Origin: Comamonadaceae bacterium
GTDB lineage: Bacteria > Pseudomonadota > Gammaproteobacteria > Burkholderiales > Burkholderiaceae_C
NCBI GenBank assembly: GCA_013297925.1
Contig: JAAFJC010000002.1
Coordinates: 1-64,000 of the forward strand
DNA length: 64,000 bases
Direction: 5' to 3'
Positions 8,640 to 50,835 of this stretch are shown piece after piece. The notes beneath the pieces were generated by a model. The model was not told where the DNA came from, searched no databases, and saw nothing but the letters and a program-made list of their open reading frames with translations. Positions within the stretch are counted from its first letter, which is position 1. Every line of letters starts with the position of its first letter. The translations under genes and the position numbers were made by a program.

Positions 8640-9374
8640 ATGAATCCAGATATTGCCATCCAATTTGACAAAGTGCTCGCAGGCTACAAAGATTTGATGA
8701 TCCTGAATCATCTGGATTTGAGCATCAAACGCGCAGCGATCACGCTCTTGATCGGCCCCAATGGCGCAGGCAAATCCACCGTGCTCAAAACCCTCTTCGG
8801 CTTGCTCAAACCGCGCGAAGGCCGGGTATTGTTTGAAGGCGAAGATATTTCTGGCGCAACGCAAAAAGAGCTGCTCTGCAAAGGCATCGCTTTCGTGCCC
8901 CAAGGCCGCAACCTCTTTCCCCAGCTCTCCGTCTATCAAAACCTAGAGCTCGGCGGCATCACACTCGGCACGAAGCTCACGCATGAGCGCATTCCCGAAG
9001 TGCTCAAACATTTCCCACGCGTACAAGAGCGCATCCATTCGCAGGCGAGTGCCTTGAGTGGTGGTGAGCAAAAGCAATTAGAGATCGCGCGAGCCCTGTT
9101 GCTGCGCCCGAAAGTGCTGCTGATTGACGAGCCTTCGATTGGCCTCTCCCCCATCGTCGTACAAGACGTGTTCAAGCTCTTGCGCGATTTGGTGAGTCAA
9201 GGCACAACGATCCTGATGGTCGAGCAAAACGTGAAAAGCGCTTTGAAGATTTCCGACGAAGCCATCGCGCTGGAGTCTGGTCGATGCGTACTGCACCGCA
9301 AGGCTTCGGAGCTGTTGGCTGATCCAGATATCGAGAGACTGTTTCTGGGCGGGCATGTGGCTGCTTCTGTCTGA
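8640..9374 (+). CDS. ABC transporter ATP-binding protein, LivF type
   Basis: A 244-residue second ATPase of the importer. Walker A is GPNGAGKST, the signature is ALSGGEQKQLEIARAL, Walker B is VLLIDEPSIGLSP, and the H-loop is replaced by VEQNV as usual for LivF. A GTG six bases upstream is possible, but the ATG at 8640 matches the family length better. A long inverted-repeat element follows before the next gene, so this gene probably ends the importer unit or at least its highest expression. Confidence 0.93.
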   Translation: MNPDIAIQFDKVLAGYKDLMILNHLDLSIKRAAITLLIGPNGAGKSTVLKTLFGLLKPREGRVLFEGEDISGATQKELLCKGIAFVPQGRNLFPQLSVYQNLELGGITLGTKLTHERIPEVLKHFPRVQERIHSQASALSGGEQKQLEIARALLLRPKVLLIDEPSIGLSPIVVQDVFKLLRDLVSQGTTILMVEQNVKSALKISDEAIALESGRCVLHRKASELLADPDIERLFLGGHVAASV

Positions 9375-9391
9375 AGACTAAATACCACACC

Positions 9392-9583
9392 AATACCGGA
9401 CGCAAAAGACGCAAAAGTTGCGCAAAAGTTGCGCAAAAGACGCAAAAAAGACAAAAGACAAAAGACAAAAGAACAAAACGAAGGCGAAGAGAGTGATTTG
9501 AAACTTGAGTATTTTTTGAATTTATTTTGATTTTCTTTTTTGCGTCTTTTGCGTAACTTTTGCGCCCTTTGCGTCCGGTATTG
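9392..9583. repeat. Large inverted-repeat element, copy 2
   Basis: The left arm runs from 9392 (ATACCGGACGCAAAAGACGC) with extra GCAAAAGTTGC units, and the mirrored right arm is at about 9538-9583. The centre is A/T-rich. It sits between the importer ATPase gene and the HPPD-like gene and could act as a terminator or a transcript-processing signal. Confidence 0.85.
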
Positions 9584-36300: not shown

Positions 36301-37663
36301 TATAGCTGGCATTTACGCGCGCGGTTCAGGTAACGATGGAGCATTCTTCCGTGGTTTGTTCATCGGGCGCAGCCTCAACGACAAGGTGGGAGGCATCAAT
36401 ACTTATCCAAGTGATGCGGATTCGCAGTCTTTCTTTGCAACTTATCACTCGACTTTCCAGATGCGGGACAACACTTTTGCCCACATCAGCTTTGAAGAGC
36501 GGGTCCCCCGCCAAGGTGCTAGCCAGCGAGAAATCATTAATGATTTGGAGCGCAACGAAAGTGGCGTTTTCAAATCGGATGATTACTACACCGAACAAAT
36601 GGAGCGCGGTACGGTGCTAAATGGCAACAATAAGTTGATCAAAGCATTTGCTGGCGCTCGCTCCATGCCCGCAAACTTGCTGACATACAACCAGAGGGAT
36701 GAGAACAATCCTAATGGAGTGGAAAACTTTTCTTTAGCAGGAGCTATTTGGGATCCGCACGGCTATTGGGGTAACAAAGGCTATTACTGGACATATGACA
36801 CACCGTTTTACACCTCAGGTGGCGGATGTCAGCCATCACTGTTCCCCACGGCCAATGGCAAAAACTCATTAGGGCGATATAACGGTCAGTCTTGTTCTGG
36901 TGAATTCTATGGCTTGAGTTTCCAAAGCGATACCGACTTTATGGATGAGCCCACCCGAGAAAACGCTTCTTATTGGCCTATGGATGTGGAGCGCGTTGAT
37001 TGCAACAGCGCGGCGTACAGCAACGCCAGCTGGGGGACGCAAGCCAGAGCTTGCAGGCAGGTGGTTGGCAGTGGCTGGAACTCTTGGAAACTTGGACAGA
37101 TGCGAGGAGCTAGCTTGCGCGCCGGAGGAAAATATATTCTTCGCTTCCCAAATCCTACTGGGCCAGTGATCAACGGCAGTGGCCCCAAATATCTAGCTGG
37201 CATCAAACAAGGCAATATGGTCAACGCTGAAGGTCAAACGGTGGCCATGATGATTCCAAAAATTGTGTCTGTGAACTTTACCAACGTGACCAAGGCATCT
37301 GACAGCTTCGTTTTTGCGGTGAGCTTTGATGGCAGCAAGAATCCAGCGGGAGTCATAGGACGATCAGGTAATGCCAAGCGCTTTCAGTGGTTACTCGGCC
37401 CCAACCCTAACCCAGACTTCCAACCTCCCAGCGATCAAGCTCGGAAATTGGTATTGGTCAACACCCGTGCTGAGGTTGAAGCCGACACCACCGGCACAAA
37501 AATGTGGCAAGACAGAGCCAACAACTTAGTTTGGGTGAAGGTGATGGGTGGATTGCGGGTTGATCCTTGGTATCGGATCGTGAATTTCACGGCTCCCTTC
37601 GGTGCTGATCTGTACAACGTAATGGGCCTTTATATCAAAGACGAGACCATTCCTAACCAATGA
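33341..37663 (+). CDS. CEMIP-like G8-domain lipoprotein with beta-helix
   Basis: A 1440-residue surface or periplasmic lipoprotein. Residues 12-25 form a lipoprotein signal ending in LSGC (Cys25). After a ~200-residue region comes a proline-alanine linker of repeated PPA units, then an ASH-like choice-of-anchor domain (ITFGAQQNAVASAPRSFTIS to VSLSGT). Around residues 450-540 is a G8 domain: NWSDASLWGGTLP, GSGVVIPAGKTVILD and TINGTLKFAD. The rest is a long right-handed beta-helix with HWHM and VVHGTSGVRVVNNICHNITG segments as in CEMIP/TMEM2-type proteins. Animal CEMIP depolymerises hyaluronan; the bacterial substrate is unknown. A small membrane protein gene overlaps its stop by four bases. 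Confidence 0.82.
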   Translation: MINVFKSHVGFKFSGVFLASVLSGCGGGGMSTTAGGSNANLVLSGHAATGLALTNAKVQIKCNGGFVASGVTSDLGAYTVAMPAGASLPCVIRVTGASVSLHAVTGGSVLSAETNVTPLSELVLTSAANRNAAIAFDQFSNAQFEYLSPAQISVAHKEVVDLFRPLVNLSGIRDFVSEPLIPAVPSKGQLGNYFDQLLDGLNAQIAAKKFTYAQIATALLTHKTGVLASSALWGDGGQGPVGAPSPPPAPPAPPAPPAPPAPPAPPAPPAPPAPAPILSLSTTAITFGAQQNAVASAPRSFTISNSGNADLLLTALTLSGNHLGDFLRNGSATSCVNGIKLVPQASCTYSVVFHPTALGARQASVAIAHNGSSSPSPVSLSGTSQAQPASELDAAIAYAQNAATAAFTTVQNFITQTYSAISNLMVRDIGVETSLPAAPASTANTSNSQNWSDASLWGGTLPLNGSGVVIPAGKTVILDTDTTNLGDVTINGTLKFADKNVRLTANKVTISGTGALMVGEPSKPYAHKAIITLTGARPNFPADRIITNTRGITVLDGGKFELYGASPSPVWTQLNDHAAAGTKALTLKDTVNWKADDTIIVGPTDFYGVNPTERMALATAANGTSLETKTALAKFRWGKMQYMTNDGLSLTPGVYTPPVEPAPRQLDQRAAVGNLSRNIVIQGADDADWTGKGFGAHVMVMGLSSKVFVDGVEFRRVGQAGAMARYPFHWHMLSYDQATGAFKGNATGHEIRNSAIWDSAQRCIVVHGTSGVRVVNNICHNITGHAMFLEDAVERKNIFEGNLVLTVKRPTNENLILLHEGDMHLSGSSGFWITNPDNIIRHNVVGDVIGNAYWNSFPTSGVGLSRKAKNPDLAGTQWANLQMNPRSMPHGIFDNNVGYSTGESGINTDMMLAGGGPIGDDRGDAGNATYEPTIDGRPWDINGAVNGGAPGSANARATFSRVTLYKTNTGYANRVTAPDYPQWLMSDIAGIYARGSGNDGAFFRGLFIGRSLNDKVGGINTYPSDADSQSFFATYHSTFQMRDNTFAHISFEERVPRQGASQREIINDLERNESGVFKSDDYYTEQMERGTVLNGNNKLIKAFAGARSMPANLLTYNQRDENNPNGVENFSLAGAIWDPHGYWGNKGYYWTYDTPFYTSGGGCQPSLFPTANGKNSLGRYNGQSCSGEFYGLSFQSDTDFMDEPTRENASYWPMDVERVDCNSAAYSNASWGTQARACRQVVGSGWNSWKLGQMRGASLRAGGKYILRFPNPTGPVINGSGPKYLAGIKQGNMVNAEGQTVAMMIPKIVSVNFTNVTKASDSFVFAVSFDGSKNPAGVIGRSGNAKRFQWLLGPNPNPDFQPPSDQARKLVLVNTRAEVEADTTGTKMWQDRANNLVWVKVMGGLRVDPWYRIVNFTAPFGADLYNVMGLYIKDETIPNQ
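34081..34166 (+). repeat. In-frame 9-base tandem repeat (CCAGCACCA)n
   Basis: About seven near-perfect copies of CCAGCACCA, degenerating at the 3' end, encode the PAP linker of the G8 lipoprotein. The unit length keeps the frame, so copy number can vary linker length without breaking the gene. Confidence 0.9.
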
Positions 37664-38064: not shown

Positions 38065-38790
38065 TTAGCGAGTTTGGATTGCAGAAACTTCAAAGAAGTT
38101 TTGCATAAACTCTCGAGTCCAGTTTTCGCCAAATAGGCGACTCAAAAGAGGCAGGCCTGGAGAGTTGTCGCGGTGATGCTCCATGTAGGCTTCCAACCAA
38201 ACATGATGATCTTGGGTTTGTTCTCGATTAGCCAACGAGTTTAAGGCGCTCTTAGAGGCCCACTCATTGATGCACATCGTGACGGATTGCCAATAAGCAG
38301 TCATTGCAAGTTCGTGCGGTTTTCTCAAAAAAATCTCGTGTCCGCTTGCGCAGCTTTCGAACCAACCGGGTAGTTCTTTGTCGTGAAAGGGCCGTGTACG
38401 ATTCAGCGCGCATTGCCAAGCACGGGTGGATATGGTGGGCGGTGCGACCACATCTAGCACGGCGACCTGCAAGGTGTTTCCAAGCACCACGGTTTCAGCC
38501 GCTAGGGTTGGCCAATCGTAGGAAGTGTTTGGAAGCAGGAACAATGACTCTACGGATACCTTCGCGCCGTGCAACGTCATAAGCCGTACTTGCCCGCGTT
38601 GGCTCGTCCAGCATCGATAACTTAGTTCCACTGGGCCAGAGGGCAACTGAGCAGCCTGCAAATGCCAAGGAGCGGTATCAATGTTGATCCAACCTGAATC
38701 TTGGGCGACCGTGGATTCACCAAAAAATCTTAGGCTAAGGGCATGTTGCAAAGGTGTCGCTTCGATCAAAGCTTGCGCTCCCAGCACCAT
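38065..38790 (-). CDS. HY2-family ferredoxin-dependent bilin reductase, divergent
   Basis: A 241-residue protein, the normal length for ferredoxin-dependent bilin reductases (PcyA/PebA/PebB/PcyX), which reduce biliverdin to phycobilins. The core FLLPNTSYDWPTLAAETVVL aligns with the family's P..xYDLPxxGxDxV, followed by LQVAVLDVVAP; the C-terminus HHRDNSPGLPLLSRLFGENW matches the NDPxxxMLxRLFGxxWT block. By-eye alignment puts Glu99 where the catalytic Asp (PcyA Asp105) usually lies and Ser210 where the C-terminal Asp of PebS-type enzymes lies. Product chemistry may therefore differ. It is the last gene of a ten-gene operon with ferredoxin and a phycobiliprotein-like protein, and overlaps the phosphatase gene by 25 bases. 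Confidence 0.8.
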   Translation of the reverse strand: MVLGAQALIEATPLQHALSLRFFGESTVAQDSGWINIDTAPWHLQAAQLPSGPVELSYRCWTSQRGQVRLMTLHGAKVSVESLFLLPNTSYDWPTLAAETVVLGNTLQVAVLDVVAPPTISTRAWQCALNRTRPFHDKELPGWFESCASGHEIFLRKPHELAMTAYWQSVTMCINEWASKSALNSLANREQTQDHHVWLEAYMEHHRDNSPGLPLLSRLFGENWTREFMQNFFEVSAIQTR

Positions 38791-39305
38791 TGAGCCGCGC
38801 TTAAACTCAACTCTGAAATATGAGCTTGCGGCCGTATGATTTTTATCAATTCCACAGCGTCAGAAAGTGGAAGATTCCATGCACACCTAAGCGCCGCCAA
38901 GGTCACCGCAGGCGCGCGGCCAACGCCGTGAAAACAAAATACTCTTCCGCAGGATCCCGTGCGCAAAATGTCGCAAGCGGCGCTGACAGCTAATTTGAAA
39001 GCCATCTGCTGCTCAAGAGGGAAGCACCTAACGAAATCAACGGAAGACGGATGACTCATCCTATCAATCATGGGATGCTGAGTGAATAAATCCGAAAATG
39101 TCGTTTCGGTTAACTCAAAGCCATGCAAGTTCAGCTCGGGATAAATTTCTAATAGACTGTTACCGCTCACGTTAACGAGATGTAGCCTTCCCGTTTTGGC
39201 AAGGCGTGCTAACTCATCAGGATATGGCAATCCTTGTATGTCCAAGATCCGCAACAACGCATCGGATCGGATCAATCGCTGATCGAAGAGTGCGAGGGTA
39301 GTCAT
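38766..39305 (-). CDS. Cysteine-based protein phosphatase-like protein (CX5R)
   Basis: A 179-residue protein. The P-loop CX5R motif of dual-specificity/tyrosine phosphatases appears as VFCFHGVGRAPAV, with Cys124 and Arg130; the usual His before the Cys is Phe and the Ser/Thr after the Arg is Ala, so activity may be weak. An upstream acidic region could supply the general acid but I cannot assign it. Lying two genes after a Ser/Thr kinase in one operon, it may reverse or read phosphorylation. It overlaps its neighbours by 4 and 25 bases. Confidence 0.65.
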   Translation of the reverse strand: MTTLALFDQRLIRSDALLRILDIQGLPYPDELARLAKTGRLHLVNVSGNSLLEIYPELNLHGFELTETTFSDLFTQHPMIDRMSHPSSVDFVRCFPLEQQMAFKLAVSAACDILRTGSCGRVFCFHGVGRAPAVTLAALRCAWNLPLSDAVELIKIIRPQAHISELSLSAAQWCWERKL

Positions 39306-39886
39306 TGATTCAAAAGCGTTGCAAATGAGTTGCGCAGCTCTTGTTCATCTTGGACAGGGCGGCGCGCATCTGTGTAAAGATGAAAACCACCCCACTGACC
39401 AGGCTGCATAAGGCGCTGCTGTGTGAGCGCCTCGCCTGTCTGCGACAACGCTTTGCTTGGGGCATCCGCTAAGTCCCAGAGCACATGAAAGCGATCAGCC
39501 TGCGACAGCGCTGCATGCAGTTGCAGAGCCTCCATACAATGCACCATGATGATCACTTGATCGAAGCTACCGGGCGCTGTTGATAAAAGGCCTATAGAAG
39601 ACGACAGCGCTCCAACAGGTATAGGAGGTCTTGGCGCGAAGGCAATGGATAGCTTCGGATCGTCCAGTAACTCTGAAATATCGTTAAGGGTCACGTGGCG
39701 GCGCAGTAGCCCTCCAACGCCCACCCGATGTTTCATCGAATCTGGATAAGCTGCGCTCAGGTTAGAGTTGATTGCAAGTTCAACAACCAAGGTGGAATCA
39801 AGTGGGCGATCTAACGGCAAAACACTCAAGTGTTGGAGCGCCCAAATATGGGAATAGATGACAGCATGTACATTGCGACGGGTCAT
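39302..39886 (-). CDS. Unknown protein of the bilin operon
   Basis: A 194-residue soluble protein that I do not recognise. Visible parts are HAVIYSHIWALQHLSVLPL, HRVGVGGLLRRHVTLNDIS and FDQVIIMVHCMEALQLHAAL. No signal peptide or membrane helix. The ATG at 39886 lies ten bases after the kinase stop; an ATG at 39922 would overlap the kinase gene and add twelve residues. Its 3' end overlaps the phosphatase gene by four bases, so it belongs to the same translationally coupled block. Kinase substrate or bilin-handling protein are equally open. Confidence 0.6.
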   Translation of the reverse strand: MTRRNVHAVIYSHIWALQHLSVLPLDRPLDSTLVVELAINSNLSAAYPDSMKHRVGVGGLLRRHVTLNDISELLDDPKLSIAFAPRPPIPVGALSSSIGLLSTAPGSFDQVIIMVHCMEALQLHAALSQADRFHVLWDLADAPSKALSQTGEALTQQRLMQPGQWGGFHLYTDARRPVQDEQELRNSFATLLNQ

Positions 39887-39896
39887 GGCTCTACTT

Positions 39897-41747
39897 TCAA
39901 AGAATAAACTCATGCGCATCAACAGATGCCATTTTGAAACGCTGCAAGCTCATCGTATTTCGATCTCGATCATGATTTTGAACAATCACAGCGCCTTGCA
40001 TCTCGCCGTGGGCATTTAATGCAATGAGAAGAGGCTTATCCGAGATACAAATCACCTTATGACACGATGCGTTGCTATAGTCTTGTCGAATCAAGCAGTT
40101 TTGAATTGCATCAAAGCCAATCCAAGAATTCTGTCCTAAAGCGACAATCAAGCTGCCATTTTGTTGACCAACTTGGATCGGTTGCCGTCCAGGCTCCAAG
40201 GTCCAAATGCAAACACCTTTACCGTTGACAAGCGCAACACTTGCGTAACAGCGACCACGATGCAAGCGCAGTTCCAGCACCGGCCCGTCAGTACGCCAGT
40301 GCATCAGTAAATCACCATCAAAGTTGCGCCACCAAATTTCTTGATTGGCCAGGCCACCACTCACAACAAAACTATTTGTATCAACGGCTACCGCAGGCTG
40401 CATGGCATAGTGTTTATGCCGCACTGCAATGATCACTTCATCTTTAAGTAAATCCAATATCAACACGCGCCGAGCCTGCGCAACTGCAAGATATTTACCA
40501 TTGTAGGCAAACGAGAGAATAGTTTCGCCAAAGTTCGTATCTGAAAGTCTGTGCCGTTTTCGCGTTAAGGGGTCAACAACCAGTAATTGACCTTCAGATA
40601 TGAAAGCTACTCCGCTGGAATGTAGAAAAAAGGGTGCAACGGAGGCAGTGAGTGCAACGGGCGTCTTAACCGAAGGCCACCAACACCAAATACCGCTGCT
40701 CATTCCTAAAAACACTCCACGCTCATCCACGCTGACCTGCTCTGGTTCCTCTGTAAAAGAAATGCCATCAAATTTAGTCCCGTTTACAAATTTATCGAAC
40801 TGTTCAGGCTCAGAAAAAAATGTAGAGCTCTGATAAGTTGTCTTGTCGGTTGCTATGCTCAATATGTCATGGACTGAAGTGCTAAGCGCATTCGTCGGTA
40901 AAACAGCAATTGCCTGCTGAACACTTGGGAATCGATCCTGTGGGCGCTTGGCGCAAGCTCTAGCGATCCATTCTCGCCACGCTTTAGATTCAATTTCCTC
41001 CAACGGTAGCGGCCTTGCTAAATGCGCACGATAAATTTCCTCCACCGAGCCAATAAATGGCAACTGACCATAGAGTAATTCAAATGCAATGATGCCCAGA
41101 CTATAAATATCGCTGCTGGCATCAAAGCCTCCATGAAGCCTTTCCGGCGCAGAGTACGCGGGGCTACCATTCGTATGAATCCCTGCTCTTGCTTCCCTGA
41201 ATGCAGCGACCGAACCCAAATCAGCAATTTTGAAAGACCAGTTATCGTTGAGTGCGTCTGCTGTACACAGAATATTACTAGGTTTGATGTCGCAATGAAT
41301 GTAACCGTGTTCATGCAGATCAATCAACCCATACAAACAATGCGCCAAGATTCGGTGGACAATATTTTCTTGTAGCAAGCCCGCGGTGCAAAGACCGGAC
41401 ACACTGCCGCCATTCATATACTCATAAATTAATACGCTATGGCCACTGGAAAGTATGCGGGTGTCAAGGCACTTGATGACGTAGGGCGATCTTAGATGCA
41501 AGGCAACTGCGGCCTCGCGTCTGTAAGCCGCTTGTCTGTGTGGTCCGAAGACTTTAGCAACACACCGTCCATGATTAGCACCGGCTTCACCTTGTTTGAT
41601 TTTCCAAACGGATGTGCCGTCGCCACTATGGATGAGTTGAGTATCTGCAAATAATTCAAGCAAACGCAATTCAACTTCTGCTGAATCGGAGAACTCAATG
41701 TGTGCGTCATCCTCGGAGCGCTTAAAAATCACGGTCGCTTCGGTCAC
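39897..41747 (-). CDS. Ser/Thr protein kinase with C-terminal beta-propeller-like sensor
   Basis: A 616-residue Hanks-type kinase. Catalytic residues are present: Lys65 in CVAKVFG, Glu78 in the C-helix, HCDIKPSN with Asp153 and Asn158, DLG at 176-178 in place of DFG, and the APE-like SAPE at 199-202. Residues ~330-616 lack membrane helices and read as repeated four-strand units (for example GVFLGMSSGIWCWWPSV and ILSFAYNGKYLAVAQARRVL), a probable WD40-like propeller. It is thus cytoplasmic. Its start overlaps the V4R gene stop by four bases. Its place among bilin genes suggests it transduces the state of the bilin protein. Confidence 0.88.
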   Translation of the reverse strand: MTEATVIFKRSEDDAHIEFSDSAEVELRLLELFADTQLIHSGDGTSVWKIKQGEAGANHGRCVAKVFGPHRQAAYRREAAVALHLRSPYVIKCLDTRILSSGHSVLIYEYMNGGSVSGLCTAGLLQENIVHRILAHCLYGLIDLHEHGYIHCDIKPSNILCTADALNDNWSFKIADLGSVAAFREARAGIHTNGSPAYSAPERLHGGFDASSDIYSLGIIAFELLYGQLPFIGSVEEIYRAHLARPLPLEEIESKAWREWIARACAKRPQDRFPSVQQAIAVLPTNALSTSVHDILSIATDKTTYQSSTFFSEPEQFDKFVNGTKFDGISFTEEPEQVSVDERGVFLGMSSGIWCWWPSVKTPVALTASVAPFFLHSSGVAFISEGQLLVVDPLTRKRHRLSDTNFGETILSFAYNGKYLAVAQARRVLILDLLKDEVIIAVRHKHYAMQPAVAVDTNSFVVSGGLANQEIWWRNFDGDLLMHWRTDGPVLELRLHRGRCYASVALVNGKGVCIWTLEPGRQPIQVGQQNGSLIVALGQNSWIGFDAIQNCLIRQDYSNASCHKVICISDKPLLIALNAHGEMQGAVIVQNHDRDRNTMSLQRFKMASVDAHEFIL

Positions 41748-42451
41748 GATGCGAGCACTTCTTTATAGACTTCATCGTACGCTTTACCTTCGTCTACGAG
41801 ACTTTGCCCCCAACGAATTCGGTCAGGACCTGAGATAAGAAAGCGGCACAGTGGAGCGCTGCCAGCTTGCCTCTCTTCAATCATCAAGCAATCCAATTCC
41901 GCTTGAGCAAGGGATTCAAAAATTCCTCGCAGCATTCCAGCAATCAGTTGATCAACGCAAGTATCTACATTCGGCAATGCATAGCGAAAGACACTGTCTG
42001 TTAATTCTGCAACCAATACGCCATGCGATTCAATGCCATCCATCCTCATGCTGAGTTTGCCCCAGCCGTGATGCGAAAAATAAGACTCAACCATCTCTTT
42101 GTATTCGATGACTGTCAGGGCGTCAATGCGGCGATTGGCAGCGACGCGCAACTCACGTTCAAATGATGTCGCAACCTTTCTCCCCCAGCGAAGGCCACAT
42201 GAGTTGAAAATAACTTGCCATGCCTCGCCCGCTTCGTACTCAATCGCTTTGTGAATACCTACGATTAAATCAGTAGAAAGATAGATAATTTTTGTGCCTG
42301 CGGCACTACTCGCCGTACCTTCATACAAATCGAAGGACTGAGATGAATCGGAGAACATCCGGCGATAGACGTCATCCACCATGGACTGTGTCATTGTGCT
42401 GTCTGTATCGAATGGAGGGGTGTTGTTCATATCGGGTCGTCCAAGCAACAT
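41744..42451 (-). CDS. V4R-domain protein 1
   Basis: A 235-residue soluble protein with a C-terminal V4R (4-vinyl-reductase-type) small-molecule-binding domain, as in BchJ and the sensor domains of XylR/DmpR. Landmarks are LIVGIHKAIEYEAGEAWQVI, CGLRWG, then CVDQLIAGMLRGIFESL and APLCRFLISG, the late Cys of the family. It is a paralogue of the protein at 43873. V4R domains bind hydrophobic ligands including tetrapyrrole precursors, so bilin binding, loading or sensing is a reasonable guess. The start shares one base with the preceding stop (TGATG); an ATG at 42430 is possible. Confidence 0.75.
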   Translation of the reverse strand: MLLGRPDMNNTPPFDTDSTMTQSMVDDVYRRMFSDSSQSFDLYEGTASSAAGTKIIYLSTDLIVGIHKAIEYEAGEAWQVIFNSCGLRWGRKVATSFERELRVAANRRIDALTVIEYKEMVESYFSHHGWGKLSMRMDGIESHGVLVAELTDSVFRYALPNVDTCVDQLIAGMLRGIFESLAQAELDCLMIEERQAGSAPLCRFLISGPDRIRWGQSLVDEGKAYDEVYKEVLAS

Positions 42452-43035
42452 CAGCCTGCAGTTAGAGTGTCAATAGCTAGCTGTATGTATGGCTCAAAAA
42501 GTGCGTTGGATTCTTCATCTAATTTGTCTTTGAAGCCATTCCTCAGCTTGCTGTAAGTCTCCCATATAGCGCGTGCATTGACTGGTACGCCTTCTGGCAC
42601 CGCTTGTGATTGACTGGCAAACAAGGCACGTTTGCGCGTCGTTTCACGGTCAGGAAAATACAGCGCCTGTAGGATCGTACGTAGCCACAATAGTTGTTTG
42701 TCTCGAAACCATGCGGGATCGTTCATCAGCATGCACAGAGTAGCGAAAGCGCTCACGCTACTGATATCGCGCACGCATTTTGTGCGCGCATAGGCATGCC
42801 TGTCTTCAAAAGGATAGTGCACAAGTATTTCATTGACAACATTTTCGACAATACCTTGCTCTGCAGCGGCAATTGCTCGCGCTGCGTTCGCGCGTGCTTG
42901 CATAGCGGGAAAGTTGCGTTCATACAGCGCGAGTTCTTCTTCTGTTAAATGCCTGTTCTCGGCAGTCTTAAATACTTCGGCAGCATTGGGATGCAGTCGT
43001 AAGCTCGATGTTGGCGCAATGGAGGGAATAGGCAT
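42451..43035 (-). CDS. Phycobilisome-family (phycobiliprotein-like) protein
   Basis: A 194-residue helical globin-fold protein resembling phycocyanin and allophycocyanin subunits. The first helices carry ALYERNFPAMQARANAARAI and VENVVNEILVHYP. The key block TKCVRDISSVSAFATLCMLM matches the alpha-84 region of phycobiliproteins (KCARDIGYYLRMVTYCL), keeping Cys87, Arg89 and Asp90, that is, the bilin-attachment cysteine and its two chromophore contacts. LLWLRTILQALYFP follows, where cyanobacterial subunits have LREVYRALGLP. A ~20-residue N-terminal extension is extra. Rods, linkers and other phycobilisome parts are absent, so light harvesting is unlikely. Confidence 0.78.
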   Translation of the reverse strand: MPIPSIAPTSSLRLHPNAAEVFKTAENRHLTEEELALYERNFPAMQARANAARAIAAAEQGIVENVVNEILVHYPFEDRHAYARTKCVRDISSVSAFATLCMLMNDPAWFRDKQLLWLRTILQALYFPDRETTRKRALFASQSQAVPEGVPVNARAIWETYSKLRNGFKDKLDEESNALFEPYIQLAIDTLTAG

Positions 43036-43074
43036 AACGATCCTCTAAAAATTCAATAAAAATGTTGATGCGGC

Positions 43075-43857
43075 TTAAGCCGCAGCTGCGGGTTGATTTC
43101 GAGCCTTCGCGTTCGTCCAAGGAATTTTTTCAAAAAAGCTGAATACGGTTTGCGTGCTGACACTGCGCCAGTCTGCAGCAGGAGAAACCCGACCCAGACG
43201 ATCGCTGAGCTCATACGCTTTCGCTAGATGATTCTGTCCAGCGCCAATCGACAGTTTGGTCGCCTTGCTCGTGAGCCATGGCAATTGACTAAAAAAACCA
43301 ACAGCTTTTTCGTCATGACGAGCGGGTAACACATGCATGATGCGCTGAGGTATATCCAGCGCTTCGTCTATGGACTTGCTGATCCAAGGTAATACCCTGA
43401 AAAAATCGGCAGCTTTTATGGTGGTCAGTGACATAACGGCTTTGTTTGTCTTGACGTCCTGATGTCTTGCCTGCTCATGAGCCTGCTTTTCCATAGCGTG
43501 CCCGATTTCTGTGTTCTTGGAAATATGAGGTGTATCCACATCAATATCCAAATCGGTGTCTGCTTTGGTTGTTTGCGTCTGCGCGATAGCACTACTTTCA
43601 ACTGAATTCGTAGTCACATGATCGGCTTGTATTTGCGGCGCAGAGACATCCAAAACCTTCAAACTAGGCATGGGTCTCAGAGCTTCTAGCTTGACGCCTT
43701 GCGACGCAAACTGCCAAAACAAGGTCGAATTTGATAGCTGGCGATGGATCGATTTGGCATCAGCCAGCGGTCGATATGCGGAAACACCGACATGCGCCAT
43801 CGCCACAAGATTGGCGAAGCGCTGCACGTGTTTGGCTTGTACAGGGTCGATTAGCAT
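43075..43857 (-). CDS. Protein with three FFxx[LI]PW motifs
   Basis: A 260-residue protein I do not recognise. The N-terminal ~60 residues look helical; residues ~75-140 are polar and probably disordered. The C-terminal half carries three copies of a short motif: DFFRVLPW (151-158), GFFSQLPW (187-194) and SFFEKIPW (240-247), each followed by a small polar/lysine patch. Such spaced aromatic motifs in a flexible chain are typical of linkers or scaffolds that dock on a repeated partner. Between the phycobiliprotein-like and V4R genes, a linker or adaptor role is attractive but unproven. Confidence 0.65.
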   Translation of the reverse strand: MLIDPVQAKHVQRFANLVAMAHVGVSAYRPLADAKSIHRQLSNSTLFWQFASQGVKLEALRPMPSLKVLDVSAPQIQADHVTTNSVESSAIAQTQTTKADTDLDIDVDTPHISKNTEIGHAMEKQAHEQARHQDVKTNKAVMSLTTIKAADFFRVLPWISKSIDEALDIPQRIMHVLPARHDEKAVGFFSQLPWLTSKATKLSIGAGQNHLAKAYELSDRLGRVSPAADWRSVSTQTVFSFFEKIPWTNAKARNQPAAAA

Positions 43858-43872
43858 GTTGCTAGATTGCGC

Positions 43873-44580
43873 TTAAGCGTCCATATGAGCCAAAATCTCT
43901 GAAGAATTAGCGCCCTCCTGCCTCCAAAAATCGGCAGCATTGACTTTCTTCTCATCGCCCACAAGAAACTTACATACATCATTGCCCATGGAATAACACT
44001 GAATCTCAATGCTTTGCCTCTCAATGCGCTCGTAGTAGCTGAAAGCGCCAGCAAACAGGCCCGCATACAAATGACATACAGGTTTCCCGAGCAGTTTCAT
44101 GGAACGTGCTACGGCAGAGTTTCGAATCTCCACGACAGTCAAGCCTTTTTCGCCGAAAGACAAATCGAGATGCCACCCACCGAATCCAGTGATTGTCAGC
44201 GGCCACCACCAGCATTCCCAAACAAACCGCGGATTCATTTGCCAAATCTCTCGCTTGCCGCCACCAAACTCTTGACGCATACGATTGGCAAAACGGTGCA
44301 TATCTTGCTCTGCCCAGGTTTTGCCACATTGATACATCATCAATGCACCTGCAGAACCCACTTCGTCTTCAATGCCTTGATGCAAACCAGCAATAAATGC
44401 ATCTGTGACTTTGGCGGCACGCTGACCATCTCGCAAAAAGATAGCGCCTCTTTGCGGGTCGTGCGCAAAAAATTCCTCAGGCACAAAATAATTGTGATAA
44501 CCCCTGTAGCCACCTTGAACGGGGTCGATGCCGTCTGCTGGCGAGGTGGAGCTTGATGGTGTGGCTATTTGTGATGACAT
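43873..44580 (-). CDS. V4R-domain protein 2
   Basis: A 235-residue soluble protein, paralogue of the V4R protein at 41744. It has DAFIAGLHQGIEDEVGSAGA, YQCGKTWA, an unusual tryptophan-rich WECWWWPL, then VCHLYAGLFAGAFSYY and CYSMGNDVCKFLVG, the Cys...Cys-x-Phe end of V4R domains. The ATG at 44580 is chosen because GGAGATATAAAC precedes it; 14 further upstream residues overlap the ferredoxin gene. The ligand may be a bilin by context. It starts two bases after the ferredoxin stop. Confidence 0.77.
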   Translation of the reverse strand: MSSQIATPSSSTSPADGIDPVQGGYRGYHNYFVPEEFFAHDPQRGAIFLRDGQRAAKVTDAFIAGLHQGIEDEVGSAGALMMYQCGKTWAEQDMHRFANRMRQEFGGGKREIWQMNPRFVWECWWWPLTITGFGGWHLDLSFGEKGLTVVEIRNSAVARSMKLLGKPVCHLYAGLFAGAFSYYERIERQSIEIQCYSMGNDVCKFLVGDEKKVNAADFWRQEGANSSEILAHMDA

Positions 44581-44582
44581 GT

Positions 44583-45065
44583 TTATATCTCCGATGCAGA
44601 ACGCGTATTGATTTTTTGCCAATCGAAATCGACAGATTTGAGCTCATTGACGACTGAGCGGGTAATGATCTTTCCCTCTTGAATCAAAACACGAGCATCA
44701 AGTGGGTGCAAAACAGGCTGCTGCGCCCGCTTGCCAATCAGCTGCTCCAATTGAGCGAATGATTCAACATACAAACCCTTAGGTAATTCAACATGAATCC
44801 CTTCGCCAAGGACTTGTGCCTGGCATGCCAACCTGCTGTTTGCTTTAGCACCCGTTAGTACGGCAAGTGTTAGCTTTTCACGGTCGGTTTGTGGGGTAAG
44901 CTGGCTACTTCCTTCCACCACATGGACATGACAGGTTGCGCACAGACCACGTCCCCCACAAAGCATTTGCACAGGAACTTGACGCACCAGCATGGCATCA
45001 AGCAGTCTTTGCTTGGTTTGAATGATCGCCGGCTGGCTATCGTGCTTAAATTTGATGGTTTTCAT
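44583..45065 (-). CDS. [2Fe-2S] ferredoxin
   Basis: A 160-residue protein with an N-terminal plant-type/adrenodoxin-like [2Fe-2S] domain: CGGRGLCATCHVHV gives Cys36, Cys42 and Cys45, and LACQ gives Cys81. The C-terminal ~65 residues are an extra, unassigned domain. Bilin reductases of the HY2 family take electrons from ferredoxin, and heme oxygenases can too, so a dedicated ferredoxin in the operon fits both steps. It lies 24 bases after the large helical protein gene. Confidence 0.9.
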   Translation of the reverse strand: MKTIKFKHDSQPAIIQTKQRLLDAMLVRQVPVQMLCGGRGLCATCHVHVVEGSSQLTPQTDREKLTLAVLTGAKANSRLACQAQVLGEGIHVELPKGLYVESFAQLEQLIGKRAQQPVLHPLDARVLIQEGKIITRSVVNELKSVDFDWQKINTRSASEI

Positions 45066-45089
45066 GGTTACAAAACGCCAAGCTCAAGG

Positions 45090-48000
45090 TCAAACCATTT
45101 GTAGCAGAGCATTGGTTTTATTGCCGGCAGCAATGGGCATGGCCTGAGTCGCTGATTTGATGGCCATTGTCAATTTTGTCATGAGTACGTTTTGCTTTGA
45201 TTCATCCAATAAATTAGTTTCGCTCATGCTTTTGAACATAAGTAATAGAGGTGTTGCATCCATGTCGCCGTACATCAGAATTCGCGTCACTTTCCAATAA
45301 AGACTGATTTCATCGCTTGAATCGGAGATTTTGTTGCGTGTCGCATGATTAAGCATGAGAGCTATCCATGCATCCGACCAATCTGAAACTGCCAGCGACC
45401 AACTTGGTATCTTTTCCAGTTGCTCTTTGTGTTGATCGAGCCATAAACGGATGTTGTCTTGCTGGCTAGGATCGAGCAAGCACTGTTTTGCTAAATCATG
45501 CGCTGCTTCTTTGCGAGCCAGTCCATCATCCAGCATGGCAACGCAGCTTGCGCGGATCAATTTCGTAAGCGAGCGGTACGTGAGCTTATCGATTTGCACC
45601 TTGGCAGTCGTCATGAATTTCTTCTTGGAAACTTCAGACGAAAACGACTGCTCCATGGCTTTCTGTACCGCAAGGAATTGCTGTTCAAGCTGTGAACTGT
45701 TCAGACCGAATAGCGTAGCGACAATGGGTGTCTCCATGACTGCGCTGTCGTTGTTGTGCTCGTGGCTGCTCGTAATTCTGCAGAGCTTGAGCATCGCCTG
45801 TACAAAGCGCCCACGCCTAATCGCGGCGAAGCGATTCACCGATTCAGATAATTTGGCTGCACGCGCGCGATCACGCTCAGCAAGCTGGAGGCTCATCAAG
45901 GCGCAAGCACCGCCGAAGTCATCCAAAACGCTCTTGGATATTCCAGAATCCAAAACTGACAGAAGTGAGCGCGATCTTTCGTTCCAGTTTTGCGGACTTT
46001 CATTTACCCAAACCGAGCTTGACGTGATGCAAGCAGAGATCAAATCGCGTTTGTTAAACATCAGTGCATTTTTACAAGCGCTTGCGCACATCAAGCCCTC
46101 GATAGCGATTCGCCACTCTAATTCTTCTTGAAGATTTTCAGCCAAAACAAAATCAGCGCCGGAATGCAAAATGTTTGCCAATTCTTCGAATCGCACCAAG
46201 CGTTCTGTCCCGCAAATGAAGTGAGTGAACCACGTATAGCAAGCGCGCTGTCGCAACGAGCTTGCATTTTGCGTAGCATGAACCTCCAAGTAGCGTATGA
46301 GCTGAAGCCAGGCCTTTGCATTCAGTGCCATATCGGGCTGTGAGCTATCTGTCAATAGATATGAAATTAGTCGCAGGGAGTCCAGTGCTGCATGTTCATG
46401 AGGGCGCGACAAAAGTATCATGCCAAGCTGAGTTAAAAACCATTGGGTCGCATCAACGTAGCCGTTCTTCAACTTACTACTCTGCGGGCTTGAGATTGAT
46501 TGATGGCCACTCTTAAAGCTGATGTGGTGGTTGTCGAGTAAATAGATTCCTAAGCTAACTTGCTCTGCTTGCTTTCTCAAACGGTGTATGAGTAATCCCA
46601 ACTTCAGCGTATGCTTATCGGATAAGGTTTCGGCCGCTGATTGCTCCCAAGCCGACAGCAAATCCTCTATCGCACCCTCGCCAAGTTCGCGCAGTAGCGA
46701 AAAAGTGACTGGCATCAATTGTGCTAAGGCCAAATCTGAATCAGGCTGCGTCGTATGCAGGCGCATGGCTTCGTTTGCCCAAGAATGCAGCGCATCAGGG
46801 CAGGCCAGTAGCAACTCATCTGGGCTCAATACTTGCCAAGAGTAGTTTTTGTTGGCTGAACCGCATTCCTTTTTCCAAGAATCTGTTCTGATGGGTGTCA
46901 CGCCAAATTTGGTTAATTCGGCCTGGCCTTGATTAGATCCGATTGCAAAGTTTCTCTTGTACTGTAGCAAGATAGGTTCAAAGATTGAGCGATATGCCTC
47001 AGCATCGAGCAAATCTGCCAATGCATCTGATAGATGTTGCAAGTAAGTGCTGACAAATTCCACAGGGACTGCAGCGATATTCTTGCCAACAACCGTTTGC
47101 CACCACCAAGCGTAGTTGTCGATTGCAGAATAAGGTGCTTGCATGAGCTCGTCACACATTTTAAGCAACGACCATCGACAGTCCATTCGACCGAGAAACC
47201 ATGCCTGATGATTGCCTTGTGGAGGTTCCGAGGCCAATCCCCTTTGAATTCTTCCAGCGTAATCTGATTCTCCCGCTGTGATAACGTAATCAACAAGTTT
47301 GTCAATTTCAACTCTAATCATCGTAGCCGCTTGACTTGATGCAAAGCTTTTTAGCCAAATTTGAAAGCCCGATTGAATGGAATCGCTCATGGATGCTGAA
47401 TTGTTAATCGCGACGAGTCGAAACAGCGCATCCCGTAGTTGCCTGTGATCAGCAGCCACGGGCAAACCCAGCATCCACCTTGATGCCCAATTTCGCATTG
47501 CATAAGCAGCACGATCCTCACCAATGCTCCTACTCAATGCGGAAAATCGCGCACTAAACACTAGGGCATCGCTACTAATTAAGCTTTTCTGGGGGGACTG
47601 TTCTGGAAGCTTTGCCCAATGGATTTGGGATTTCATTTGAGCATTGAGACATTGCTCAAGAATAGCTGCACTTTTGCGCATGGTCTCGGAAATGTTCGGA
47701 TGCTTCTTGCTATCCCACTGGGAAAAAGCAGCGATGATTTGTTTGTAGCGCTTCCAAACCGGCAGGTCAAGACTGTAGTTCAAGTGCTGGGAGACAGACC
47801 ACCACATCACGCCAGCAGCAACTCTTGAGTCGTCACTGATTGCATGGGCTTCCACTGCTAAGGTGAGCACAGCATTGAGTTGCCTGATAAGTCGTTGGTG
47901 GCTGCTTGTATCTGCGGCACCTTCCACCATGCTAGAGGCAAGCAAGCTGAGGTTTTGCCTGGTTTCCTCAATGCAACTTTGTGCCTCGATTCTTGCTTCT

Positions 48001-49163
48001 GACCATTGTGCAAGCCGATTCATCGATTGTTCAACGCGATCAAGCTCGTGTCTTTCAACGGACGGCCTGATCAATTCAATGAGGTCTTTGCAAGTGCTGC
48101 GAATCCTGCTTCCCGTCCAGCCGGCGCGATACAAGGCCGCAATATCAATGCTTTTGGCCCATTCCATTGAGATCGTGCTTAACGGCTTTTGCGCGATGGC
48201 CATTTGCAGCAGTGCCACCATATGGAGCTGCTTAACCGACGCAGATTGGTGTGCTGAATGGGTCAACCACACCCGAATAACATTAAAGAGTGGCACGCTA
48301 CTGATGAGAATTTCATAGGCCGTACCAATATCGCTCACATTCTTATGATGAGAACGTGAAGCATGGTGATGCTCTAAAGCAATAAGCAGTCGCTCCCATT
48401 GAATGGATTGCAAATTATTTTTCGCAACAACGTGGCTTAGAAATCCAAGCACGTACATGGAATACACATGAGCCGCTTTGCCGGGAGGTGTTCTGGCCCA
48501 CTCTGAAAGCCATTGCTCCAAGGATGCTCGCAATTCTTCTTCATTGTCGCCAAGCTTCGCAGCACGCAACGTCGATTTGGCCTGCGTCAATGCAGGATCG
48601 ATGATCGCTCTTTCTTGATTACTGGTGCGATTTTGTAAAACATACAAGCGTAAGCTGTGTTGAATGGCATCAAACGCATTAGTCAACCGGGTGTAGGTTT
48701 GATCCCCGACTTGGCTTGAGAATTTTAAAAGCAGCGCTTCAATGAGGCGTGCAGAATTGTTATTTGCTGTTGAGCTTGAAATTTTGTTGAGCAATGTGAA
48801 CCAACTCGCCAGCCCTTTGCCAGATTGGACGATCTTCAATACCGATTGGTAGATTTCATTGAGCTTTGTTTGTCGCTCAGTTAATACGCCAGGGAAAGCG
48901 GACACAACATGAGGGTCCTGGCTTAGCTGCTGAATTAGCTCTTGCCCACATGCTTCAAGCCGCTTGGCAGTTTCTGCTTTTGAATTTTGTATTTCAAGTT
49001 CGGAAATTTGCGAAAAATCCGTCGCGAAAATATGATGAACCAAAGCCGTACTGGTTGCAAACTCGCTGATGGGTTTCTGATTGCCAAACGAACTGTCGTG
49101 CGAAAAGTCACTGGTTTTGAAGCCTGATGTTGTTGAATCTTGAATTGCGACTGGTGCGTTCAT
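45090..49163 (-). CDS. Giant helical protein of unknown function
   Basis: A 1357-residue protein, first gene of the bilin operon. I recognise no domain. It has no signal peptide and no membrane helices, and is helix-rich throughout, suggesting an alpha-solenoid or scaffold. Examples of the helical texture are ELRASLEQWLSEWARTP, RLIRQLNAVLTLAVEAHAI and SLTKLIRASCVAMLDDGLAR. Many tryptophans occur in the middle (NYAWWWQTVVG). Its size and first position suggest a structural platform or a lyase-like loading factor, but there is no direct evidence. The G+C content and codon use look lower than in the flanking core genes. Confidence 0.7.
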   Translation of the reverse strand: MNAPVAIQDSTTSGFKTSDFSHDSSFGNQKPISEFATSTALVHHIFATDFSQISELEIQNSKAETAKRLEACGQELIQQLSQDPHVVSAFPGVLTERQTKLNEIYQSVLKIVQSGKGLASWFTLLNKISSSTANNNSARLIEALLLKFSSQVGDQTYTRLTNAFDAIQHSLRLYVLQNRTSNQERAIIDPALTQAKSTLRAAKLGDNEEELRASLEQWLSEWARTPPGKAAHVYSMYVLGFLSHVVAKNNLQSIQWERLLIALEHHHASRSHHKNVSDIGTAYEILISSVPLFNVIRVWLTHSAHQSASVKQLHMVALLQMAIAQKPLSTISMEWAKSIDIAALYRAGWTGSRIRSTCKDLIELIRPSVERHELDRVEQSMNRLAQWSEARIEAQSCIEETRQNLSLLASSMVEGAADTSSHQRLIRQLNAVLTLAVEAHAISDDSRVAAGVMWWSVSQHLNYSLDLPVWKRYKQIIAAFSQWDSKKHPNISETMRKSAAILEQCLNAQMKSQIHWAKLPEQSPQKSLISSDALVFSARFSALSRSIGEDRAAYAMRNWASRWMLGLPVAADHRQLRDALFRLVAINNSASMSDSIQSGFQIWLKSFASSQAATMIRVEIDKLVDYVITAGESDYAGRIQRGLASEPPQGNHQAWFLGRMDCRWSLLKMCDELMQAPYSAIDNYAWWWQTVVGKNIAAVPVEFVSTYLQHLSDALADLLDAEAYRSIFEPILLQYKRNFAIGSNQGQAELTKFGVTPIRTDSWKKECGSANKNYSWQVLSPDELLLACPDALHSWANEAMRLHTTQPDSDLALAQLMPVTFSLLRELGEGAIEDLLSAWEQSAAETLSDKHTLKLGLLIHRLRKQAEQVSLGIYLLDNHHISFKSGHQSISSPQSSKLKNGYVDATQWFLTQLGMILLSRPHEHAALDSLRLISYLLTDSSQPDMALNAKAWLQLIRYLEVHATQNASSLRQRACYTWFTHFICGTERLVRFEELANILHSGADFVLAENLQEELEWRIAIEGLMCASACKNALMFNKRDLISACITSSSVWVNESPQNWNERSRSLLSVLDSGISKSVLDDFGGACALMSLQLAERDRARAAKLSESVNRFAAIRRGRFVQAMLKLCRITSSHEHNNDSAVMETPIVATLFGLNSSQLEQQFLAVQKAMEQSFSSEVSKKKFMTTAKVQIDKLTYRSLTKLIRASCVAMLDDGLARKEAAHDLAKQCLLDPSQQDNIRLWLDQHKEQLEKIPSWSLAVSDWSDAWIALMLNHATRNKISDSSDEISLYWKVTRILMYGDMDATPLLLMFKSMSETNLLDESKQNVLMTKLTMAIKSATQAMPIAAGNKTNALLQMV

Positions 49164-49283
49164 GTGATGGCTTGGCCCTGATATTTTGTTGCTTGTATTG
49201 TTTTCAATTGAAAGTTTATTGAATGATAATAAAAGATGAATAATTCAGAGTTTCTAATAAATATTATTTGAAAGACCAACAAC
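49164..49283. promoter_or_regulatory. Divergent promoter region of the bilin operon and heme oxygenase gene
   Basis: 120 very A+T-rich bases between the start codons of the giant protein gene (left) and the heme oxygenase gene (right). All control of the ten-gene operon and of hmuO-like expression must lie here. TTTCAATTGAAA at about 49201-49212 is a 12-base palindrome and a candidate operator. I cannot assign -35/-10 boxes with confidence. Confidence 0.55.
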
Positions 49284-49880
49284 GTGCAATTACTGAGCCA
49301 ACTTCGCATTCATACTTCCAATGCACATCAAAGACTTGATCAGCAATCGATTCTTACTCCGGTCATGAGCGGCGACGTTAAGCCCTTGGATATCTATAAA
49401 GGTCTTGTCGCGCTGAATCATGCCCATCATGTGGTTCACAGCGCGCTGAAAAACTTGTCGCTTGAAAAGCAATCTATTTGGGAGATTTTCGATGGTCGCA
49501 CGCATTTGGTGCGTGATGCTGCGTATTGGCGCGAGCAAGTTCAGAAATTTCAAACTATTGAAACTGCTGACCCTATCAAGATCAACGCAATTGATTTGCA
49601 TCAACTGTCGCATTACATGGGCGTGGCTTATGTGATGGAGGGTTCTGCTTTGGGCGGTTTGAAGCTGGCTAGGCACGTGAGTGATGCCCTGGGTGCGAAT
49701 CATCAAGCGGGATTGTCTTTTTGGCTCGCGGCGGATGCTGATCGTACGCGGTGGCCAAGATTTCTTCGTGTTTTGGAGAGCGCTTTGGGCATGCAACCAG
49801 AACATTTCCAATCGACCATCGATGCAGCCAACGCATGCTTTGGAATATTTGAAAAGGCGCTCAACCCAGCTAGTAATTGA
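49284..49880 (+). CDS. Biliverdin-producing heme oxygenase
   Basis: A 198-residue soluble heme oxygenase of the HO-1 family, cleaving heme to biliverdin, CO and iron. The proximal ligand is His15 in HTSNAHQRLDQ; the distal helix is GVAYVMEGSALGGLKLARHV, matching the family's LYVxEGSxLGG. The start is a GTG with a weak ribosome-binding site. It is divergent from the bilin operon and shares its promoter region. No TonB heme receptor or phytochrome gene is next to it, so biliverdin supply for the phycobiliprotein-like protein is the likely purpose. Confidence 0.92.
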   Translation: MQLLSQLRIHTSNAHQRLDQQSILTPVMSGDVKPLDIYKGLVALNHAHHVVHSALKNLSLEKQSIWEIFDGRTHLVRDAAYWREQVQKFQTIETADPIKINAIDLHQLSHYMGVAYVMEGSALGGLKLARHVSDALGANHQAGLSFWLAADADRTRWPRFLRVLESALGMQPEHFQSTIDAANACFGIFEKALNPASN

Positions 49881-49894
49881 CCAATTGGCGGCGC

Positions 49895-50464
49895 TCATAC
49901 CGTTGTCGCCTCCAACATTTGGCGTAGTTCGACGAGATGGGCTGCTGCATTGGGTGTGTTGTTTTTGATCATGAGCTCGTAAGCGCCCAAACTGGCTTGC
50001 AATTGGCTCATTGTTGTGATTTCTTCGATGTCGCCAAGCATTGTCATGGCCAGAGAAGGTGCTTCTTGCAGTAAGAAATTCTCCATCAGCGTTTTTGCAT
50101 CGTTTAGAGCGGATGCAGTCTTCTCTGGCGGCAGCATGTGCTGCGAGTTAGTGACCGTAAATGGCTGCGAAAAAGCCCCAAACGCTGGTAATTGCGCGGG
50201 CAAGGTTTCTGAATACGCTTCAATGACAGAATCTTTTTTAGTTTGCTCCATGATGGAATCAAGGATCGATGTGACCAATCCTAGGTCGATCAGGCGCTGT
50301 ATTTTTTCGGGTGCACAGATATGCGGCTTGAGCACGCGCTGCAAGTCAACTTCATTGCGCTTTCCATCGATGAATTTCAATAGCATTCTCAAGTCGTCAG
50401 GGAGCGACGAGTGCGAGTTGAAGGCTTCCAGCCTCCCTTGATTGGTGCGTATCAGTGGAGCCAT
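49895..50464 (-). CDS. Unknown protein with LPxxLRxLLxxIDGKR region
   Basis: A 189-residue soluble protein. The first ~75 residues (LPDDLRMLLKFIDGKRNEVD then IQRLIDLGLVTSI) look like a winged-helix-type module that I have seen in effector proteins of Burkholderiales, but I cannot name it. The rest is helical. The ATG at 50464 follows AGGGGATGT. It overlaps the upstream gene at 50452 by 13 bases and is convergent with the heme oxygenase gene, 14 bases away. Confidence 0.6.
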   Translation of the reverse strand: MAPLIRTNQGRLEAFNSHSSLPDDLRMLLKFIDGKRNEVDLQRVLKPHICAPEKIQRLIDLGLVTSILDSIMEQTKKDSVIEAYSETLPAQLPAFGAFSQPFTVTNSQHMLPPEKTASALNDAKTLMENFLLQEAPSLAMTMLGDIEEITTMSQLQASLGAYELMIKNNTPNAAAHLVELRQMLEATTV

Positions 50465-50835
50465 ACATCCCCTAAGGTTTGTTTGAGGCTCTGATCTGAT
50501 ACTTTCCATTCTGTGTGCATGATCTCCAAAACACCTCTGCGTTCTAAGTATTGCAGCAGATAAACCGTATCTGAGACGTTCCCGCGCATGCAGCGCTTGA
50601 GATTCTCAAAGCTCACTGGCCCGTGGCTTAGCAGAGACAGCGCCCGGTAGTTATTGGCATTTTTCAGCTTTGTGTTAATTTCTGGCCAGCGCTTCAAAGA
50701 ATAAGCAGTTTTCTGCTGCGCATCCCCTTTTTGCCCTGGCATAGGCCACTTGTCCTGTAAGGTCTTCGTGTCCCACAGATAAGACGATTTTTGTAATAGA
50801 TGATGAATACCAAATTGACGAAAAATATGTAACAT
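50452..50835 (-). CDS. Small winged-helix-like unknown protein
   Basis: A 127-residue protein I do not recognise. The segment YRALSLLSHGPVSFENLKRC, followed by GNVSDTVYLLQYLERRGVLE, resembles a winged-helix DNA-binding or protein-interaction module. No membrane segment. It overlaps the next gene by 13 bases, so the two form a coupled pair. As a pair next to the bilin genes they may be regulators, but no direct sign of this is visible. Confidence 0.6.
   Translation of the reverse strand: MLHIFRQFGIHHLLQKSSYLWDTKTLQDKWPMPGQKGDAQQKTAYSLKRWPEINTKLKNANNYRALSLLSHGPVSFENLKRCMRGNVSDTVYLLQYLERRGVLEIMHTEWKVSDQSLKQTLGDVWLH

Follow-up and report, generated by a model that had tools for sequence, protein, structure and literature searches.

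A pre-1/BBAG-1-type bilin cluster of a Comamonadaceae bacterium, with an associated kinase, a motif-repeat protein and a predicted multi-globin giant

Why would an apparently non-photosynthetic bacterium keep genes predicted to make a bilin next to a globin predicted to carry it, and join both in one operon to a ferredoxin and a protein kinase? The question is raised by a locus of a Comamonadaceae bacterium (assembly GCA_013297925.1), which was analysed within the first 64,000 nucleotides of contig JAAFJC010000002.1 (the window). On the evidence of its gene families, reductase residues and synteny this locus is a pre-1/BBAG-1 cluster, of the kind described by Rockwell, Martin and Lagarias (PMC10151467; PNAS 2023), whose pre-PcyA clusters combine heme oxygenase, an Fe-S protein, two V4R proteins and a bilin biosynthesis-associated globin (BBAG). 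We further propose, at chances that we consider even, that its products form a scaffolded complex of bilin and [2Fe-2S] ferredoxin, which is likely to be controlled by its own kinase and phosphatase and is related to the cyanobacterial Slr0144-Slr0149.

The operon consists of ten open reading frames (ORFs) on the minus strand (38065-49163), with gaps of at most 39 nt and overlaps of at most 40 nt, and is flanked by a divergent heme oxygenase gene (49284-49880). All of these frames are intact, which bears out the eleven-gene layout given in a preliminary description of this DNA. The domain families named there also hold: Fe_bilin_red, Phycobilisome, Fer2, Pkinase, Heme_oxygenase and one V4R match above their Pfam cut-offs. 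The features of the locus are as follows.

38065..38790, minus: ferredoxin-dependent bilin reductase with pre-1 type residues (PF05996, 1.5e-11, above cut-off)
38766..39305, minus: CX5R phosphatase-like protein (DSPc, E 0.0074, below cut-off)
39302..39922, minus: 206-residue protein, predicted ParA/MinD fold without Walker A (AF2 pLDDT 92.7; Foldseek 5if9_A, E 3.0e-5, prob 1.00)
39897..41747, minus: Ser/Thr kinase with a conserved C-terminal domain, possibly a propeller (PF00069, 2.4e-32; HCDIKPSN and IADLG present)
41744..42451, minus: V4R-B protein (V4R-A profile match, 1.6e-43)
42451..43035, minus: BBAG, phycobiliprotein-family globin with predicted bilin site CVRD at Cys87 (PF00502, 3.7e-12, above cut-off)
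42775..42777, minus: codon of the predicted bilin-attachment Cys87 (profile column 84)
43075..43857, minus: FFxxLPW-repeat protein between V4R-A and BBAG, putative linker or scaffold (three motifs, enriched against shuffles and background)
43384..43404, minus: motif 1, FFRVLPW, residues 152-158
43276..43296, minus: motif 2, FFSQLPW, residues 188-194
43117..43137, minus: motif 3, FFEKIPW, residues 241-247, starting 19 residues before the C-terminus
43873..44622, minus: V4R-A protein (PF02830, 5.7e-14)
44583..45065, minus: [2Fe-2S] ferredoxin, relative of the cyanobacterial cluster ferredoxin Fd5/Slr0148 (PF00111, 2.5e-9)
45090..49163, minus: giant of 1357 residues, predicted multi-globin protein (phycobiliprotein-like), no CxRD in the window copy (family profile; AF2 and VIA; homology to CxRD-bearing giants)
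46938..47555, minus: globin-like segment 1 of the giant, residues 537-742
46203..46580, minus: globin-like segment 2 of the giant, residues 862-987
49284..49880, plus: heme oxygenase, heme to biliverdin (PF01126, 4.6e-12, above cut-off)

A scan of public genomes with the V4R-A family gave 61 loci (L numbers below), which were mapped with profiles of the window's genes; they derive from 58 assemblies (pairs L020/L061, L027/L028 and L047/L048), and contig ends truncate several of them. Clusters of different phyla share the order ferredoxin, V4R-A, motif protein, BBAG, V4R-B, kinase, and six loci (L003, L004, L011, L014, L015 and L018) have the kinase, the ParA-like protein, the phosphatase and the reductase together with the core. 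Recurrence of the gene set in other genomes, to which the preliminary description had looked as a check, is supported. In its alignment (A1), V4R-A is 58-78% identical to the 28 remaining rows. Pfam V4R does not match V4R-B, nor its L001 homologue at E 0.01, and the two V4R proteins of the original annotation stand one by Pfam and the second by the V4R-A profile only.

The class of the cluster emerges from its reductase and its gene order. The best PDB matches of the reductase are PcyA entries, and in a pairwise alignment with Synechocystis PcyA Glu76 is replaced by His, His88 by Ser and Asp105 by Glu. Such a His/Ser/Glu-type loss is the published pre-1 pattern; pre-1 sequences are reported from beta- and gammaproteobacteria, among others, and weak activity has been demonstrated for a pre-1 enzyme (PMC10151467). 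The strain of that published enzyme, Methylovulum psychrotolerans Sph1, is among the surveyed loci (L015), and its core gene order is identical to that of the window. Both clusters contain heme oxygenase, the bilin reductase, the Fe-S protein, two V4R proteins and a BBAG with CxRD, and both contain the kinase, the motif protein, the ParA-like protein and the phosphatase; they differ in the giant gene, for which the 20.7 kb of L015 hold no match. We assign the window locus to the pre-1/BBAG-1 clusters because of this shared gene content, the pre-1 residues and the synteny with L015, and the earlier statement that no system of this make-up had been described was wrong, as such clusters already appear in PMC10151467.

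In the predicted pathway, heme oxygenase would yield biliverdin, the pre-1 reductase, fed by a ferredoxin, would reduce it, and the reduced bilin may attach to Cys87 of BBAG, as tested relatives suggest. Gene families and the CVRD site favor the originally suggested bilin synthesis and CxRD globin carrier, as a prediction. The BBAG alignment comprised 57 ORFs of 140-260 residues, drawn from the 61 listed as BBAG. The cluster's heme oxygenase gives the only PF01126 match in the assembly, and BBAG the only PF00502 match. That both sole representatives lie in the cluster, with a ferredoxin encoded beside a ferredoxin-dependent reductase, would suit a purely metabolic role, in which the bilin is made or degraded for heme disposal, as an antioxidant or for iron release, V4R proteins and ferredoxin are accessory, and kinase and giant are regulatory extras. 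We consider this unlikely: a covalent-type carrier, along with the giants of related loci, which bear up to four CxRD bilin-site motifs, points to the holding of bilin and not to its processing alone, and cyanobacterial clusters retain the core without heme oxygenase and reductase (PMC10151467). In eight Pirellula-type loci (L036, L037, L038, L040-L043 and L045) the globins called BBAG have no CxRD and each giant carries two, which looks like a shift of the bilin site from BBAG to the giant; the label Pirellula-type is used here for L036-L038 and L040-L045, the record titles of which read Pirellula, Planctomycetaceae or Planctomycetota.

Four parts of the cluster, namely the kinase, the motif protein, the giant and the ParA-like 206-residue protein, are conserved components that we did not find in published main texts, the supplement of PMC10151467 aside. 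The text of that paper, its supplement not included, uses the word "kinase" once, in the title of a reference, and "phosphatase" never; two further papers found to use the pre-PcyA/BBAG terms do not contain the word kinase in their main texts.

The kinase was counted wherever any kinase-domain match lay, by domain coordinates and on either strand, within 7 kb of V4R-A. It was found in 29 of the 37 loci outside cyanobacteria and Pirellula-type planctomycetes; among the eight misses six have contig ends within 2.5 kb, and two (L012 and L033) look real. None was seen in the 9 Pirellula-type or the 15 cyanobacterial loci (Synechocystis not included; some cut by contig ends). Across 22 loci and the window, L022 being left out, kinase sequence distances correlate with core-protein distances (Mantel r 0.43-0.71), and none of 999 permutations reached values as high. 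All 23 cluster kinases keep HxDxKxxN, and most of them, including that of the window, have HCD, HGD, HND or HSD in place of HRD, which we take to be a feature of non-RD kinases. The protein had been described as a kinase with a propeller: the kinase is confirmed, and the propeller is hinted at by two sub-threshold matches of the kinase tail profile to the PDB, both of them RACK1 entries (E 0.16 and 0.29). In the acidobacterial loci L023 (14606-15643) and L025 (14716-15735) a trypsin-like PDZ protease directly follows the kinase.

What could this kinase act on? In two planctomycete loci (L034 and L060) a single ORF contains both a cluster-type ferredoxin domain and a kinase domain, with Fer2 and Pkinase each above cut-off, and a separate ferredoxin gene is present besides the fusion. 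In Synechocystis, Fd5 is no longer phosphorylated when SpkG, encoded by the gene at the end of slr0144-slr0152, is lost, the kinase activity of SpkG itself being unverified (PMC11863333), and Fd5 is Slr0148 (PMC7363133). Because of these fusions and this precedent, we infer by analogy that the window kinase may act on its ferredoxin; the link to phosphorylation made earlier is supported. The ferredoxin cysteines C36, C42, C45 and C81 are kept in 24/24 kinase-bearing rows, window included, and in 11/11 cyanobacterial rows of a 47-row alignment. Conserved Ser/Thr positions are about equally frequent in the kinase-free cyanobacterial rows, so the alignment names no phosphosite. In L007 (Opitutales) an HHH-domain protein (8788-9504) lies between the giant and the ferredoxin.

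The Synechocystis operon is instructive beyond the kinase. Cyanobacterial clusters such as slr0144-slr0149 descended from pre-PcyA clusters (PMC10151467), and slr0144-slr0152, like the operon of the window, has genes for an Fe-S protein, V4R proteins, BBAG and a Ser/Thr kinase, the first and last of these being Fd5 and SpkG in Synechocystis; heme oxygenase and bilin reductase occur in the window only, and the two kinases are likened by operon context, not orthology. Slr0144-Slr0149 are reported to interact, on the basis of co-fractionation and tagged Slr0149 (PMC9880817), and we therefore suggest that BBAG, V4R-A, V4R-B and the ferredoxin form a core complex. The same operon is linked to the assembly and repair of photosystems (PMC10151467, PMC13174344), and the window cluster might, in an older version of that role, assemble or repair membrane redox complexes. 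This is quite improbable in our view, as Photo_RC is unmatched in the window's assembly and the Synechocystis effects may stem from the adjacent slr0150-slr0152 (PMC10151467).

Another possibility, favored by the preliminary description, is that the locus is a photosensor, in which light switches the BBAG bilin and the kinase is the output. Predicted bilin synthesis, a globin with a covalent site and a kinase do share one operon, and the assembly has a single PF00502 protein and no PHY match, so that the absence of phytochrome noted earlier is upheld. The one BBAG-1 that has been tested bound bilin, but poorly, and was photoinactive (PMC10151467), and among the fused ORFs that a scan brought up there were fusions of ferredoxin and kinase and none of BBAG to a kinase. 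These points weaken the light-sensor reading, which we regard as unlikely; since BBAG-1 was photoinactive and no PF00124 reaction centre was found, a phytochrome-like sensor and an antenna both become less likely.

The gene between V4R-A and BBAG, here called the spacer, is very divergent between loci and its product is mostly of low complexity. The triple motif first noticed in the window protein is real (FFRVLPW, FFSQLPW and FFEKIPW). In 20 of 23 spacer proteins (window and 22 loci, the main group) there are 45 copies of F[FYL]xx[LIVMF][PSN]W, against a shuffle mean of 0.017 and against three copies in 932 other ORFs (297,941 residues) of main-group loci, one of which is a truncated spacer; the patterns were picked after inspection of the sequences, and the strict count leaves out the truncated L024 spacer. 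None of the 10 planctomycete and 12 cyanobacterial spacers has this strict pattern. With a slightly looser motif the last copy starts 6-13 residues before the C-terminus in 17/23 spacers. A still looser pattern gives 65 copies in 23/23 main-group spacers (shuffle mean 1.85) and 21 copies in 12/12 cyanobacterial spacers (shuffle mean 1.76), the latter being closely related sequences; it is found once in 10 planctomycete spacers. Short motifs that recur along a chain of low complexity point to a multivalent linker. The protein matched no family of Pfam or PHROG, and homology to a known linker was not found.

The giant is the second candidate for a structural role. When a profile of its family was compared with the PDB, 13 matches had E<=10, and 12 of these are phycobiliproteins (lowest E 0.0071); structure modelling agrees with a family containing phycobiliprotein-type globin domains, of which at least two are predicted in the window copy. 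Locus L026 encodes one protein with eight tandem globins, and giants of the L007 or L010 type have four CxRD motifs. The window giant was rejected as a CxRD bilin carrier, since it has no CxRD site and the two aligned Cys positions are Gly and Tyr. An iterated profile of the giant, which reached 51 loci, matched BBAG as well; these matches were discarded as drift, and a profile of four sequences took its place. Protein-database searches, with about 8,000 candidates scored in each, returned only itself for the window giant, and itself and one relative for an Opitutales giant. In the eight Pirellula-type loci listed above, a giant of 763-819 residues directly follows V4R-B, in the place of the kinase in other clusters.

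Several globins in one chain, giants of relatives with several bilin-site motifs and a motif-repeat linker resemble the design of an antenna, and BBAG and the giant could be imagined as a primitive one capturing light. This we hold to be very improbable, given that Photo_RC is unmatched, that published quantum yields for BBAG-3 and BBAG-2 are 3-7% (PMC10151467), and that neither the window giant nor the eight-globin protein of L026 has a CxRD. The globin fold is common to phycobiliproteins, BBAG and, by prediction, the giant's segments, and the window has a linker-like repeat protein; unlike phycobilisomes, it combines several globins in one chain with a single PF00502 protein. With no Photo_RC match and one PF00502 match in the assembly, where bilin lyases were not searched for, the locus does not classify as a phycobilisome. 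The earlier statement that no rod or linker gene is present needs qualification, as the giant is predicted to have the phycobiliprotein fold and the motif protein is linker-like in design, without found linker homology.

Returning to the scaffolded bilin-ferredoxin complex, the motif-repeat protein would use its several motifs to tether units of the core to one another, and the giant would be a scaffold, with bilin-site motifs of its own in other lineages and probably bilin-free in the window. The kinase may phosphorylate the ferredoxin or read its redox state, and the CX5R protein may reverse this. That such a complex forms, that it is tethered in this way, what the kinase phosphorylates and what purpose the locus serves are our inference. 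A bolder and, to us, doubtful extension is that heterotroph BBAG clusters represent a pre-photosynthetic phycobilisome-like body, with multi-bilin tandem-globin polyproteins, FFxxLPW linkers and a phosphorylation-switched ferredoxin serving a bilin-dependent redox reaction, perhaps light-driven. If this were true, phycobilisomes and slr0144-slr0152 would have a logic of scaffold, linker and kinase that is older than oxygenic photosynthesis. The cluster may in any case show what pigment assemblies did before photosynthesis adopted them. The giants, the motif-repeat protein and the ferredoxin-kinase fusions are concrete, testable parts: one may ask what receptor binds FFxxLPW, whether a CxRD giant holds several bilins and whether the kinase acts on ferredoxin as SpkG appears to do on Fd5. 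Through them the slr0144-slr0152 operon, still unexplained, could be approached directly as well.

Two further genes complete the operon. The 206-residue protein, listed as unknown in the first annotation, is predicted from its model to have a ParA/MinD fold; the fold resembles that of ParA/MinD ATPases such as McdA, but Walker A is missing in 15/15 members of its family. A start at 39886 appears to fit this family better. In the deltaproteobacterial loci L027 (12921-13700) and L029 (12578-13396) true ParA-type ATPases (KGGVGK[ST]) lie between V4R-B and kinase, and hhalign of these against the 206-residue protein gives P 0.55, no established relationship. For the phosphatase, the CX5R signature noted earlier is kept in 6/6 homologues found, and the DSPc family match falls below the Pfam cut-off.

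As for the setting, no Photo_RC (PF00124) match was found in the 97%-complete assembly, in which type I reaction centres and chlorophyll genes were not searched for; this agrees with the non-photosynthetic host assumed at the outset. Among 399 genomes of the order V4R-A is found at E 1e-20 or better in one, the window's own. G+C is 0.45-0.51 over 38-52 kb, 0.50-0.51 over 32-38 kb and mostly 0.52-0.59 in the remaining window. The cluster was probably gained horizontally. Past the heme oxygenase the low-GC stretch also contains two overlapping small ORFs (49895-50509 and 50452-50835, minus), which have no counterpart among the 61 related loci and may be lineage-specific regulators; the one of 204 residues weakly matches a PHROG whose function is not known, the sole PHROG match among five proteins. 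Adjoining the operon on the other side, 33341-37663 (plus) encodes a 1440-residue protein with a G8 domain, a CEMIP-type beta-helix and a long proline-alanine repeat.

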